A stretch of DNA of 51,102 nucleotides from Candidatus Cloacimonadota bacterium (GTDB lineage Bacteria > Cloacimonadota > Cloacimonadia > Cloacimonadales > GCA-2742885). The DNA is taken from positions 1 through 51,102 of the forward strand of contig PDOO01000040.1 in assembly GCA_002742885.1 (NCBI GenBank), written 5' to 3'. The number at the start of each line of letters is the position of its first letter. Position 1 is the stretch's first letter. The notes under the pieces were generated by a model that did not search any database, was not told where the DNA came from, and worked only from the letters and a program-made list of their open reading frames with translations. This document shows positions 15,129 through 24,481 of the stretch, piece by piece. Made by a program: the position numbers and the translations under genes.

Positions 15129-15138
15129 AATATTTCTG

Positions 15139-15170
15139 ATCCCCGATTCATTTCGGGGATTTTTATCTTT
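15139..15170 (+). terminator. Rho-independent terminator after buk
   Basis: Perfect eight-pair stem ATCCCCGA/TCGGGGAT (15139-15146 with 15153-15160), a six-base loop, then TTTTATCTTT. Confidence 0.88.
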
Positions 15171-15289
15171 AACTGAAAATAAGTTAATTCGTAAAATTTC
15201 CCGACTTTTTATGTTCAGCCGCCTCGCAATTTCATGATTTTTCATTTTTTCGGACAATAATTAATTTTAGGGTATTTTAAAGGAGATAT

Positions 15290-15709
15290 ATGATGAGCTT
15301 ATATTTAACAAGCAAAGATTTTAACGAAAACGATTCAGTTGAAAAACATGATTATTTATATCTGATTTTTAACAGAGGTTTCGGATGACCTTTCTGTCGA
15401 AAACACATGTTGCAGGCGCAACAAGACCTGAACAGATTTGAAGAAAAGAAAATTAAAGTTATTGCTGTTTGCCCGGAAAATCCGAAAGCAGTCAAAAAAT
15501 TTGCAGAGAAACACTCATTATCATTTGATTTAGTGTCTGACAAAAAACATGAAATTGCCGATAAATACGGTCAACAGGTAATATTTTTTAAATTGGGACG
15601 AATGCCGGCTCAGATAATTTGCAATAAAAAAGGCAAAGCGGTATTTAAGCATTACGCAAAAAATATGAAAGACATAGTTTCCAACGATGAAATTTTATCT
15701 AAATTCTGA
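15290..15709 (+). CDS. Probable selenocysteine peroxiredoxin (AhpC/TSA family), in-frame TGA at residue 33
   Basis: From an ATG behind AAAGGAG the frame reads 32 codons to TGA (15386-15388), then continues open for 106 more codons to a TGA at 15707-15709 (139 residues). The residues around the TGA read FNRGFG-U-PFCRKHM. The TGA replaces the first Cys of the CPFC motif seen in related thiol peroxidases (GxWCPFCRxQ), giving UPFC. The rest (IKVIAVCPENPKAVKKFAEK, FDLVSDKKHEIADKYG, PAQIICNKKGKAVFKH) is a normal thioredoxin-fold peroxiredoxin. A SECIS-like hairpin follows the TGA. If read as Sec it is a full-length peroxide reductase; otherwise it is a pseudogene with a nonsense mutation. Confidence 0.75.
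15386..15436 (+). promoter_or_regulatory. Candidate bacterial SECIS element
   Basis: Right after the TGA (15386-15388) lies a six-pair upper stem TGTTGC/GCAACA (15408-15413 with 15418-15423) capped by the loop AGGC. A lower stem TCTGT/ACAGA (15393-15397 with 15432-15436) lies beneath an internal loop. The apical loop begins 26 bases after the TGA and has G at its second position. Both agree with the loose bacterial SECIS consensus: loop 16-37 bases away, G in the first two loop positions. Confidence 0.65.
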
Positions 15710-15779
15710 TTTTTATTTCATCATTATTTTCTCTCTTCATTAAGAAGGTTACAGAGAAAAAAACATAAAGGAATAAATA

Positions 15780-16278
15780 TGACGAAAAGCAACTCGGGTA
15801 AAATTGTTGTTTCTCAAGATTTTCTTGATTTAAAAGAACAAATCAGGTATTTAAAAGAAAAACTTATCGCTTCGTTTGCCGAAAAAGACAAATTACTGTT
15901 TGTTTAATGCGAAATATTAAAAATGTACATGTAAGAAGCGGGACATTGGGAATTGGAGTGCTATGAGTTAATGACTCAGTATCGAAAACTCAAAAGAATT
16001 TCGGAAATCATCAGAAAAAAAATAAACAGACAAGAAGAAATATCTCTAAGCGAAATACAATTTATTCTGAAAAAATAATTTTCCAAAGACTAAACTGAAC
16101 TTAAAGAAAAATTAAAGAATATCAATACGATGACAAAGCAATTGTCGCAAAAAAACGAAGAAGCGTCAAAACAGGATATATTCCCAAAGCGGATAATCCT
16201 GTATTTGCAAGAATTATGGATGCCGGTAAACTTCTTTTCGGAAAAATAAAAAAAGGGAAAAATCGAAAATTGGATTAA
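15780..16278 (+). pseudogene. Decayed coiled-coil (J-domain-like) protein gene
   Basis: A start behind AAAGGAATAA gives MTKSNSGKIVVSQDFLDLKE and then TAA at 15906. The same frame goes on with protein-like sequence (GHWELECYELMTQYRKLKR, ISEIIRKKINRQEEISLSEI) broken by three more TAA codons. After the A-rich stretch near 16105-16120 the plausible frame changes (DDKAIVAKKRRSVKTGYIPK, then FARIMDAGKLLFGKI) and ends at 16278. The LKEKLI...ELECYELM...KLKRISEIIRKKINRQE pattern resembles the helical N-terminal part of a J-domain-like family, but no HPD motif remains. It is clearly non-functional as written; the family call is tentative. Confidence 0.55.
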
Positions 16279-16530
16279 AATAACTATCGATATTTATCTT
16301 CGAGAATAAACTTTTGGGATATAAATCTTGAAAATATTAATTTTTTATCTCTATATATTCAATAAATAAAAAATACGGATATAAACAATAACCGACAGAA
16401 AATATTGATTTTACATAAAATTTTTCCTTAACATTCCGAAAGCATTTCTCCAAAATCCTTAATTTGCTGCCTCAGAAAAATCTTAAATCAGCCTTGACAT
16501 GATAAAACTGTTTCAAAATCTGCCGTCGTA

Positions 16531-16688
16531 GGTTTTGGTTCATCCGTTTTTGCGGATGCTAAGATGGAATTCGGTGAAAAGCCGAAGCAGCCCCCGCTAC
16601 TGTAAGAAAGGACGAACGATCGTTGCCACTGTGAAACGGGAAGGTGATCAAGTAGGATGATATTCGAGTCAGGAGACATGCCAAAATC
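16531..16688 (+). promoter_or_regulatory. Cobalamin (B12) riboswitch aptamer
   Basis: The conserved core is present in order: GGTGAAAAGCCGAAGCAGCC near 16572 leading into CCCCGCTACTGTAAG, then GCCACTGTG, GGGAAGGTG, and the B12 box AGTCAGGAGACATGCC at 16667-16682. The closing P1 helix can form between 16531-16538 (GGTTTTGG) and 16681-16688 (CCAAAATC). It sits 115 bases upstream of the succinyl-CoA synthetase fusion and the EamA and YitT genes, and should lower their expression when B12 is plentiful. Confidence 0.95.
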
Positions 16689-16695
16689 GAAGACC

Positions 16696-16803
16696 TGATG
16701 CTTTCGGAGGGAAAGTCAGTCCGGTTCCGAGATACAGGATAATTGTGTCTGAAACGTGCTTGCATTCCCTCCTTGATTTGGTAAAAATTAAGGAGTAAAA
16801 AAA
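16696..16803 (+). promoter_or_regulatory. Riboswitch expression platform with ribosome-site sequestering hairpin
   Basis: The Shine-Dalgarno AAGGAG (16790-16795) can pair with CTCCTT (16769-16774). The helix extends inward to 11 pairs including one G-T (16769-16779 with 16785-16795) around a five-base loop. The upstream GGAGGGAA (16706-16713) is complementary to TTCCCTCC (16765-16772), which overlaps the anti-Shine-Dalgarno strand, so the two pairings exclude each other. The same GGAGG can also be the loop of a local hairpin (CTTTC/GAAAG). This is the geometry of a translational switch; no T-run terminator is present. Confidence 0.75.
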
Positions 16804-18816
16804 ATGAAATTACAAGAATTTCAAGGTAAAGAACTGTTCAAAGATTACGGAATTACAGTTCCTGAAAGTCAATTTATCCCCAAAAACGAAAAAACAATTA
16901 AAATTAATTTAGAATATCCTTTTGTTGTTAAAAGTCAAGTATTGGCAGGCGGAAGAGGCAAAGCCGGTTTAGTAAAATTCGTAAAAAATCAAGAAGAATT
17001 CGACGGTTGCATAGAACACATAATGACCAGCGAGCACAGAGGCGAAAAACCGGTCGGCGTATTGCTTGAAGCCGCTGCGGAATTGGACAAAGAATATTAT
17101 TTATCCATTTTGGTAAACCGCCAATTACGTTGTCTGAGTTTGATTTTTTCAAGTTTCGGGGGCGTGGACATAGAAGAAGTTGCCAAATCAAATAAAGAAC
17201 AAATTCATACTGTACACCTTGATCACAATAATTCAATCGAAGATTTGAGAGAAGATTTATTTTTGCTTAAAGATAATTTGAAAAATGACATACAATTCGA
17301 AACGTTTGTCGTATTCTGCTCCAAACTTCTCAAATTATTTACGGAAAAAGATCTTATGATGATTGAAATAAATCCGTTTATTTTTGTCAATGACACCGAA
17401 ATCTCGGCTCTTGACGCAGTTGTCGAAATAGATGATTCGGCATCATTCCGTCATCCGGATATTTTCGAAGAAGCCAAGAAAATAGAAAAATACACAGCAG
17501 AGACAAAAGAAGAAAATCCTTTTGGCAATCATTACGTTGAACTTGACGGAAACGTCGGAATACTCGGTTGCGGAGCCGGAATCGTAATGGCATCAATGGA
17601 TATGATAAGAAGCTTCGGCGGAAAACCCGCAAATTTCCTCGATATCGGAGGAGGAGCAAACAAGAAAACGACAGTCCAAGCTTTGGAAATTCTGCATGAA
17701 AATACCAACATAAAAAGTATCTTCATAAATATCTTCGGCGGAATAACTTTCTGCGACGAAATAGCAAAAGCAATCATAGACTTCCGAGCAACTCGCAAAA
17801 GAACTCTTCCTCTTATTATAAGAATGATGGGAAACAATGCTAAAGAAGCTATCAGATTATTAAAAGACAACGGTATTTTTGCTTTCAACAACATGGAAAA
17901 AGCAGCCGAAAAAGCAGTTAAACTCGCCAACAAAAAATACGACGATTTCTTTATTTCGTCTCAATCAAAAATTTTGGTTCAGGGAATCACGGGAAAATAC
18001 GGTTCTCACCATACTAAGAAAATGATGAACTACGGAACCAAAATAGTTGCCGGCGTCTCACAAAACAAAAACCATACGGAAATGCACGGAGTTCCCGTTT
18101 ACAATTCGGTAAAAGATGCCGTGAAAAATCATGATATAGACGTAAGCGTTATGTTTGTTCCCGCTCCTTTTGCCAAAAGCGCGGCTTTTGAAGCAATAGA
18201 TGCCAAAATTCCTTTGCTTGTTATCATAACCGAGCATATTCCGGTTAGAGACACGATGGAAATAATCCAATATGCCAACGAAAACGAAACAAAAGTAATC
18301 GGTCCTAACTGCCCGGGAATGATTAGAGTAAATCAGGCAAATCTCGGTATTATTCCGGGACATATCTTCCAAAAAGGAAATGTTGCCGTTCTCTCCAAAA
18401 GCGGAACTTTGCTTTACGAAATAGCCAGCGGCATCAGCCTTAACGCAGGCGGAATCTCTACGGCAATCGGTTTGGGAGGAGATCCGGTAACAGGAACTTC
18501 CATTTTGGATGCGATTCAATATTTCGAAAAATCATCCGAATCAAAATATATAGTTTATATAGGAGAAATCGGAGGCGGCGAAGAAGAAGAACGTCTCAGA
18601 GATTATCTCGCCGATAACAATTCCAAACCCATCATAGCCTTTTTTGCCGGTCAAAGCGCGCCTAGCGGAGCAAAGATGGGTCATGCCGGAGCAATCATTC
18701 AAGGCGAGAAATCAACTATTGCTTACAAGAAAAAAATCTTGTCGGAAGCAGGTTGCCATATTGCCGATCTTCCTTCCGATATTCATAAAATCATCAATAA
18801 ATTGGAGAATAATTAA
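16804..18816 (+). CDS. Succinyl-CoA synthetase, beta and alpha subunits fused (SucC-SucD)
   Basis: A 670-residue single chain. Residues 1-375 are a SucC-type beta subunit: ATP-grasp (KSQVLAGGRGKAG at 43-55), EINPF at 188-192 and the CoA-ligase part (FLDIGGGANKKT at 278-289, NIFGGITFCDEIA at 309-321). Residues about 382-670 are a SucD-type alpha subunit: CoA-binding GITGKYGSHH (394-403), IGPNCPGM and the phospho-His in MGHAGAI at His627. It interconverts succinyl-CoA and succinate with ATP or GTP. The beta-alpha order differs from ADP-forming acetyl-CoA synthetases, which are usually alpha-beta, and from the separate sucCD of most bacteria. It is controlled by the B12 riboswitch and is first of a three-gene operon. 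Another acyl-CoA substrate is possible. Confidence 0.9.
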   Translation: MKLQEFQGKELFKDYGITVPESQFIPKNEKTIKINLEYPFVVKSQVLAGGRGKAGLVKFVKNQEEFDGCIEHIMTSEHRGEKPVGVLLEAAAELDKEYYLSILVNRQLRCLSLIFSSFGGVDIEEVAKSNKEQIHTVHLDHNNSIEDLREDLFLLKDNLKNDIQFETFVVFCSKLLKLFTEKDLMMIEINPFIFVNDTEISALDAVVEIDDSASFRHPDIFEEAKKIEKYTAETKEENPFGNHYVELDGNVGILGCGAGIVMASMDMIRSFGGKPANFLDIGGGANKKTTVQALEILHENTNIKSIFINIFGGITFCDEIAKAIIDFRATRKRTLPLIIRMMGNNAKEAIRLLKDNGIFAFNNMEKAAEKAVKLANKKYDDFFISSQSKILVQGITGKYGSHHTKKMMNYGTKIVAGVSQNKNHTEMHGVPVYNSVKDAVKNHDIDVSVMFVPAPFAKSAAFEAIDAKIPLLVIITEHIPVRDTMEIIQYANENETKVIGPNCPGMIRVNQANLGIIPGHIFQKGNVAVLSKSGTLLYEIASGISLNAGGISTAIGLGGDPVTGTSILDAIQYFEKSSESKYIVYIGEIGGGEEEERLRDYLADNNSKPIIAFFAGQSAPSGAKMGHAGAIIQGEKSTIAYKKKILSEAGCHIADLPSDIHKIINKLENN

Positions 18817-24169: not shown

Positions 24170-24481
24170 TTACCTGAGAGCAGAAATTTTATCTTCAAAG
24201 AAAGCTTTCTTTCGTACTCCTGAAATCGTATCTTTCATTTCTCCGTCTTTGAAAATTATAACGGTCGGAATACTCATAATATCATATTTTGAAGCCAATT
24301 CTTCTTCATTGTCAATATCGACTTTAAGTATTTTTATATCCTGATTTTCTTTTGCCAATGCTTCTATTTCGGGAGCAATCATGCGACAGGGACCGCACCA
24401 GGATGCCCAAAAATCAACCAAAACAATTCCCTCTTGGATTTCACTGTAAAAATTCTCCGCATTAACTTCTTTTAAATTCAT
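24170..24481 (-). CDS. trxA: Thioredoxin
   Basis: A 103-residue single-domain cytosolic thioredoxin. The active site WASWCGPCRM places the redox pair at Cys29 and Cys32, with the buried Asp (VDFWA) and cis-Pro (MSIPTVIIF) in place. It reduces disulfides in ribonucleotide reductase and peroxiredoxins, and could reduce the Sec-peroxiredoxin of this window. GGAG lies 7 bases before the ATG. It is transcribed alone, divergent from the M42 peptidase. Confidence 0.96.
   Translation of the reverse strand: MNLKEVNAENFYSEIQEGIVLVDFWASWCGPCRMIAPEIEALAKENQDIKILKVDIDNEEELASKYDIMSIPTVIIFKDGEMKDTISGVRKKAFFEDKISALR

Follow-up and report, generated by a model that had tools for sequence, protein, structure and literature searches.

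Peroxiredoxin-like ('Prx-like') selenoproteins with a UxxC motif were described by 2005 in the Sargasso Sea set, according to the available part of PMC1088965, and a 'Prx-like thiol:disulfide oxidoreductase' is listed as a selenoprotein in the excerpts of PMC1794560 and PMC13188914. The selenocysteine (Sec)-containing peroxiredoxins known so far, as presented in the same excerpted sources, carry the motif TxxU (PMC13188914, PMC1088965), while in an ocean set the group designated 'Prx-like 1' comprised 225 Sec and 2,740 Cys sequences (PMC2398784, excerpt). For the bacterial SECIS element (bSECIS), the accessible text of PMC13188914 gives a rule requiring a loop of 3-9 nt, a stem of 4-16 bp and a G in the first two loop positions, with the further terms of a distance of 16-37 nt from the UGA and a minimum free energy of -7.5 kcal/mol or lower. 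The stretch of DNA analyzed here (hereafter the window) comprises 51,102 nucleotides of contig PDOO01000040.1 from a Candidatus Cloacimonadota bacterium (assembly GCA_002742885.1), and contains a gene which very probably joins this already described kind of redox selenoprotein.

The gene, its surroundings and the Sec machinery of the genome

The features of the locus are as follows.

15138..15161, + strand: terminator-like stem-loop after the upstream gene, recognized by pattern only
15280..15285, + strand: Shine-Dalgarno-like AAGGAG 5' of the ATG, read directly
15290..15709, + strand: probable selenoprotein gene, 139 aa, PF00578 AhpC/TSA family, UxxC type, with the stop codon TGA at 15707-15709
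15386..15388, + strand: TGA, the predicted codon of Sec33, read in the sequence and TGA in 80/80 kept relatives
15395..15397, + strand: codon of Cys36, the partner of Sec33 in UPFC, lying on the peroxidatic Cys of Prx in alignments
15408..15423, + strand: bacterial SECIS-like hairpin UGUUGC-AGGC-GCAACA with 6 bp, a 4-nt loop at 15414-15417 and 25 nt between the UGA and the loop

Read through its single internal TGA, the frame 15290-15709 translates as MMSLYLTSKDF...NRGFG-U-PFCRKHM...SKF, with Sec in the context N-R-G-F-G-U-P-F-C-R; the observation in the earlier note of one in-frame TGA giving U-P-F-C within an otherwise intact frame of 139 residues was thus borne out by the sequence and its read-through translation. 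The mechanical list of open reading frames (>=80 aa) contains only the piece behind the TGA (15407-15709, 100 aa). When the TGA was read through, the protein matched PF00578 (AhpC-TSA) with 66.6 bits (cut-off 26) and PF08534 (Redoxin) with 48.4 bits (cut-off 26.6), both matches spanning the TGA. The query in these Pfam searches, as well as in the NCBIfam, structure, phage and plasmid searches, was the 139-aa protein with one extra C, the final TGA having been read as well.

The upstream gene belongs to the Pfam acetate kinase family, and the terminator-like stem-loop behind it suggests that the selenoprotein gene probably has its own transcript and is transcribed alone. No shared operon was seen among the relatives described below, the largest cluster of flanking ORFs covering 9/80 loci (best 80 of 177 relatives). 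Directly downstream, at about 15779-16280 (+ strand), lies an apparent gene relic, a plausible protein frame interrupted at several points by in-frame TAA; no Pfam match was obtained for the two longest of its early open pieces. Further on, a cobalamin riboswitch (RF00174, 120.9 bits; 16519-16699, + strand) precedes a 670-aa gene (16804-18816), the Pfam domains of which are those of CoA ligases (ATP-grasp_2, Ligase_CoA, CoA_binding). A thioredoxin gene (WCGPC; 24170-24481, - strand) encodes a possible reductant for the selenoprotein.

The genome assembly comprises 2,171,621 bases in 53 contigs and is 93.62% complete. All of the components for which the earlier note had advised a genome search are present, with one match each over the curated cut-off: tRNA-Sec with the anticodon UCA (60 bits, Rfam cut-off 47), selA (524.7 bits, cut-off 267.9), selB (360.6 bits, cut-off 242.25) and selD (356.9 bits, cut-off 125). 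Among 14 control genomes the corresponding cut-offs were exceeded in 5 for tRNA-Sec, 1 for selA, 2 for selB and 2 for selD. The selD gene of the window's genome has an in-frame TGA of its own, a single one, in the motif SGUGAK, and a second PF00578 gene, L063 (526-1233, 235 aa; G000:C21:637-1035), has a TGA in FTFVUATEV, that is TxxU; we take this gene to be PrxU. Taken together, the machinery genes and the further TGA-bearing selD and L063 indicate that the organism, judged by its genes, decodes Sec; the window gene supports Sec decoding in this lineage and represents one selenoprotein more. As a side observation, among the PF00578 matches listed with frames of about 240 aa in genomes of the phylum, many have one TGA, and those that were read contain TFVU.

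Relatives and conservation of the Sec codon

Relatives were sought in 84,980 species genomes with a two-row alignment, in which Sec was given as X, and two peptide patterns without the Sec codon, one of which starts directly after this codon and fixes Cys36 and its neighbours to Gln +9. The scan returned 177 relatives, and in all of the best 80, which were kept, TGA occupies the Sec codon and the matched stretch is free of further stops. Since the peptide patterns excluded that codon, its identity in 80/80 relatives is more than chance. The record titles among the kept 80 name Chloroflexi, Deltaproteobacteria, Actinobacteria, Syntrophomonadaceae and a spirochaete, as well as the candidate divisions KSB1, KSB3 and GN15; these relatives are not fully independent, two being from one genome and a few being near-identical. 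Of these best 80 of 177 relatives, 35 have ORFs ending in TGA. In 49 genomes holding relatives (49 of the 80 loci), selA was over the cut-off in 47, below it in one and absent from one.

A profile search (E 1e-25) of 400 genomes from the phylum of one relative, some of which overlap with the kept 80, gave 52 matches in 48 genomes. TGA is present in 51 of them, one of which also has a TAA, and stands at the same codon in all 30 of the 51 that were located by codon. The one stop-free match, G402 (L185, G402:C99:42600-44100, minus strand), reads CPFC and is the only Cys form seen. Homologues with random in-frame stops, which the earlier note had named as evidence that would speak against Sec, were absent from the 80 kept relatives, and one of the 52 further matches carries an extra TAA.

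In a tblastn search of plasmids 31 records were matched, the best being the Thermomicrobium roseum megaplasmid NC_011961.1 (33.6%, E 4e-20). Its ORF L057 (1399-1866, in the record from 545266 on) has TGA at the same codon, the frame continues beyond it, and a strong SECIS-like hairpin follows the UGA. The annotated 'hypothetical protein' WP_012643006.1 of T. roseum stops exactly at that UGA, so genes of this kind can be cut at UGA by annotation. The plasmid record, taken alone, is without selA.

In the window's own phylum, no second family member was found with the family alignment in the other 123 of 124 genomes searched; the only other match (G069) is weak (E 9.2e-11), stop-free and reads TPGC, i.e., is of the ordinary Prx type. 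A single-sequence scan of genome contigs with the window protein found nothing. A phage origin of the gene was considered and rejected, as phage records gave no match at E 1e-5 and none of the 15 stretches of viral contigs fitting a pattern encodes a relative.

The window's subgroup is characterized by the signature NRGF-UP[FY]C-RxHMAQLR ... GRMPA, where the conserved GRMPA may correspond in function to the cis-proline of thioredoxin. Within the subgroup the window copy is highly divergent: its end branch in the tree of 82 rows is 4.63 versus a median of 0.27, and its placement in the tree is unsure because this branch is so long. Among the 26 near-invariant columns (>=97% in the other 33 rows) the window protein keeps 19, both redox residues included, and has 7 changed; as aligned, it also lacks about 9 residues at the N-terminus.

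A SECIS-like hairpin within the coding sequence

The hairpin downstream of the window's UGA agrees with the loop, stem, G and spacing terms of the bSECIS rule (6 bp, AGGC, 25 nt). The free energy was -10 for a 54-nt fold, and -6.1 kcal/mol for the top hairpin alone, which is weaker than the -7.5 of the rule. Across the family, the loop, stem and spacing terms were applied with the energy cut-off left out and G-U pairs allowed; so defined, a hairpin is present at 82/82 family sites, with the 25 nt spacing in 81 and -3 kcal/mol or better in 81. By the same test, hairpins follow the UGA in selD and L063 of the window's genome. On the two strands of the window together, 47 of the 1910 other TGA are also followed by a hairpin at least as stable by this rule, and the single-sequence fold of 54 nt is ordinary in comparison with shuffles (z -0.68, 43/200 shuffles as good). 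Nine Rfam matches were obtained around the gene at a lax threshold, all far under their gathering scores.

Codon usage under the hairpin is constrained. In the best 80 of 177 loci, Ala +8 is GCG in 79/80, Gln +9 is CAG in 80/80 and Leu +10 is TTG in 80/80, versus 23% of Ala, 64% of Gln and 17% of Leu elsewhere in the same ORFs; of the further conserved columns that were examined, Cys36 alone has an equally fixed codon (TGC, 79/80). In the window copy the residues under the hairpin are LQAQ versus AQLR in the family, and two stem pairs are changed on both sides, with compensation. Among 109 aligned rows, 105 of them distinct, the window alone has U-A at pair 26-35, the 108 others having C-G; at pair 25-36, G-C or G-U is found in 103 rows, A-U in one, U-A in the window and no pairing in 4. 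In the Cys form G402, a single natural control, 3/6 pairs are kept, both loop-closing pairs are broken and other codons are used.

Pair counting alone cannot tell the hairpin from slid versions of itself, because the stem is partly self-similar (slid by -2, three of its positions pair in 108, 109 and 106 of the 109 rows), and the argument for the hairpin rests therefore on the codon constraint and the compensated pairs of the window. As judged from the sequences, this comparative SECIS evidence is stronger than the single-sequence fold. The subgroup represents a clean example of an RNA structure constraining a protein sequence, with three synonymous codons frozen across distant phyla; the same constraint is absent in the lone Cys form seen, and one lineage has rewired the hairpin by compensated changes. 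Two variants were noted besides: in the CRAxLARLR/M subgroup (7/109 rows) the hairpin, as seen by eye, is nearer to the UGA, and in L160 the loop at 29-32 after the UGA is AUUU rather than AGUU, which breaks the G rule of bSECIS at the usual place and makes L160 a possible exception to it.

Interpretation and comparison with known redox proteins

Considering the Sec machinery, the conserved TGA, the hairpin, the frozen codons and the compensated pairs, the gene is very probably a functional selenoprotein gene with SECIS-guided decoding of the UGA by SelB, whose product would be a Prx-like oxidoreductase with a Sec33-Pro-Phe-Cys36 centre. The suggestion of the earlier note that a selenoprotein is probable is thereby backed by the machinery genes, by the conservation of both the TGA and the hairpin, and by the synonymous-codon constraint. 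The observed part of this explanation consists of the gene sequence, the genes of the machinery, the conservation among relatives and the hairpin. As to the mechanism, SelB with Sec-tRNA-Sec would read UGA 15386-15388 as selenocysteine, guided by the hairpin inside the coding sequence; Sec33, which stands at the N-terminal end of a thioredoxin-type xxxC motif, would most likely attack a peroxide or a disulfide; Cys36 would resolve the adduct as a selenenylsulfide; and a thioredoxin, such as the one encoded in the window, could re-reduce the protein.

The position of Sec bears on the kind of protein expected. Cys36 is invariant in 34/34 rows of the family alignment; in HMMER alignments to solved structures it is paired with the peroxidatic Cys of 2cx3 (motif FSPVC) and Sec33 with the Ser of this motif, the Thr of DTPG is the counterpart of Sec33 in 3drn, and ResA aligns to the window protein via its CxxC. 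The Pro of the Prx motif PxxxT/SxxC is replaced by Arg29, and R-G-F-G-U-P-F-C, with Sec at the Thr position, thus differs from the classical motif as well as from TxxU. The earlier note had taken the TGA to replace the peroxidatic Cys, a reading which the PF00578 score over the cut-off and the AhpC/TSA-like sequence could favor, and peroxidase activity would be compatible with a UxxC protein. This assignment nevertheless did not hold, Cys36 taking the peroxidatic position and Sec33 that of the Ser/Thr three residues before it; moreover, the Sec-peroxiredoxins known from the consulted excerpts are TxxU (PMC13188914, PMC1088965), to which L063 of the same genome conforms instead. We therefore regard a Sec-peroxiredoxin sensu stricto as unlikely, and correct the assignment of the Sec residue to the thioredoxin-type position rather than the peroxidase cysteine; by its sequence, the predicted protein is of the UxxC type.

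The TGA could also be a nonsense mutation that stopped a decaying cysteine gene at codon 33, and the neighbouring relic with its in-frame TAA, the very long branch and the failure to find a second member in the 123 other genomes of the phylum would be in line with it. However, the same TGA in 80/80 kept relatives from several phyla, the full Sec machinery, the hairpin kept through compensated changes and the otherwise intact frame with 19/26 near-invariant residues make such an origin highly improbable, and the TGA conservation together with the SECIS led us to reject a pseudogene. The long branch, the shortened N-terminus and the changed columns (7/26) make relaxed selection conceivable, i.e., a genuine selenoprotein gene, still decodable though of no further importance, that is losing its function in this lineage; the compensated stem changes and the intact frame nevertheless speak for ongoing selection on Sec insertion, and we consider such a loss quite unlikely. 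As to an ordinary amino acid assigned to TGA genome-wide, or an assembly error, the probability is negligible: the window ORF itself ends in TGA, as do 35/80 ORFs of the kept relatives, in agreement with the earlier view that TGA is not generally reassigned; the UCA-anticodon tRNA examined is tRNA-Sec; and TGA stands at this codon in many separate assemblies.

With the functional selenoprotein gene as the preferred reading, we lean, by a modest degree of confidence, towards a broader picture in which this Prx-like subgroup is nearly always Sec, carries a near-frozen SECIS across phyla, lies under the NCBIfam cut-offs and has been cut by annotation at least once (T. roseum), the window lineage being a fast-evolving one that rewired its SECIS and kept the RNA hairpin. 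Indeed, none of the seven proteins tested, namely the window protein and six relatives, scored over the cut-off of any NCBIfam model; the best match for all seven was NF040769 (SelL-related), with 58.1 bits for the window protein and 53.0-84.5 bits for the six relatives, all under the curated cut-off of 120.

SelL is a UxxU protein, and the window protein differs from SelL and the SelL-related proteins of NF040769 in being UxxC. PrxU (NF040737) likewise combines PF00578 with Sec, and the same genome holds one such TxxU gene, L063, but PrxU is a longer protein whose Sec, within TxxU, occupies the peroxidatic position. Bcp/PrxQ and ResA resemble the window protein in sequence among the solved structures, and ResA has the same two-residue spacing; both differ from it in lacking Sec, the Bcp type having TxxC (as in the L023 gene of this genome) and ResA CxxC. 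The predicted protein fits the Prx-like thiol:disulfide oxidoreductases (UxxC/UxxU), which, as the excerpted literature describes them, share with it PF00578 and, where Sec-peroxiredoxins have TxxU, a thioredoxin-like UxxC; the match is one of description, not of sequences, and the activity is predicted. 'Prx-like 1' differs in being mostly Cys (225 Sec and 2,740 Cys in the excerpt of PMC2398784), whereas the window's subgroup is nearly all Sec, so that, at the thresholds used, the nearly all-Sec pattern applies to a narrower group.
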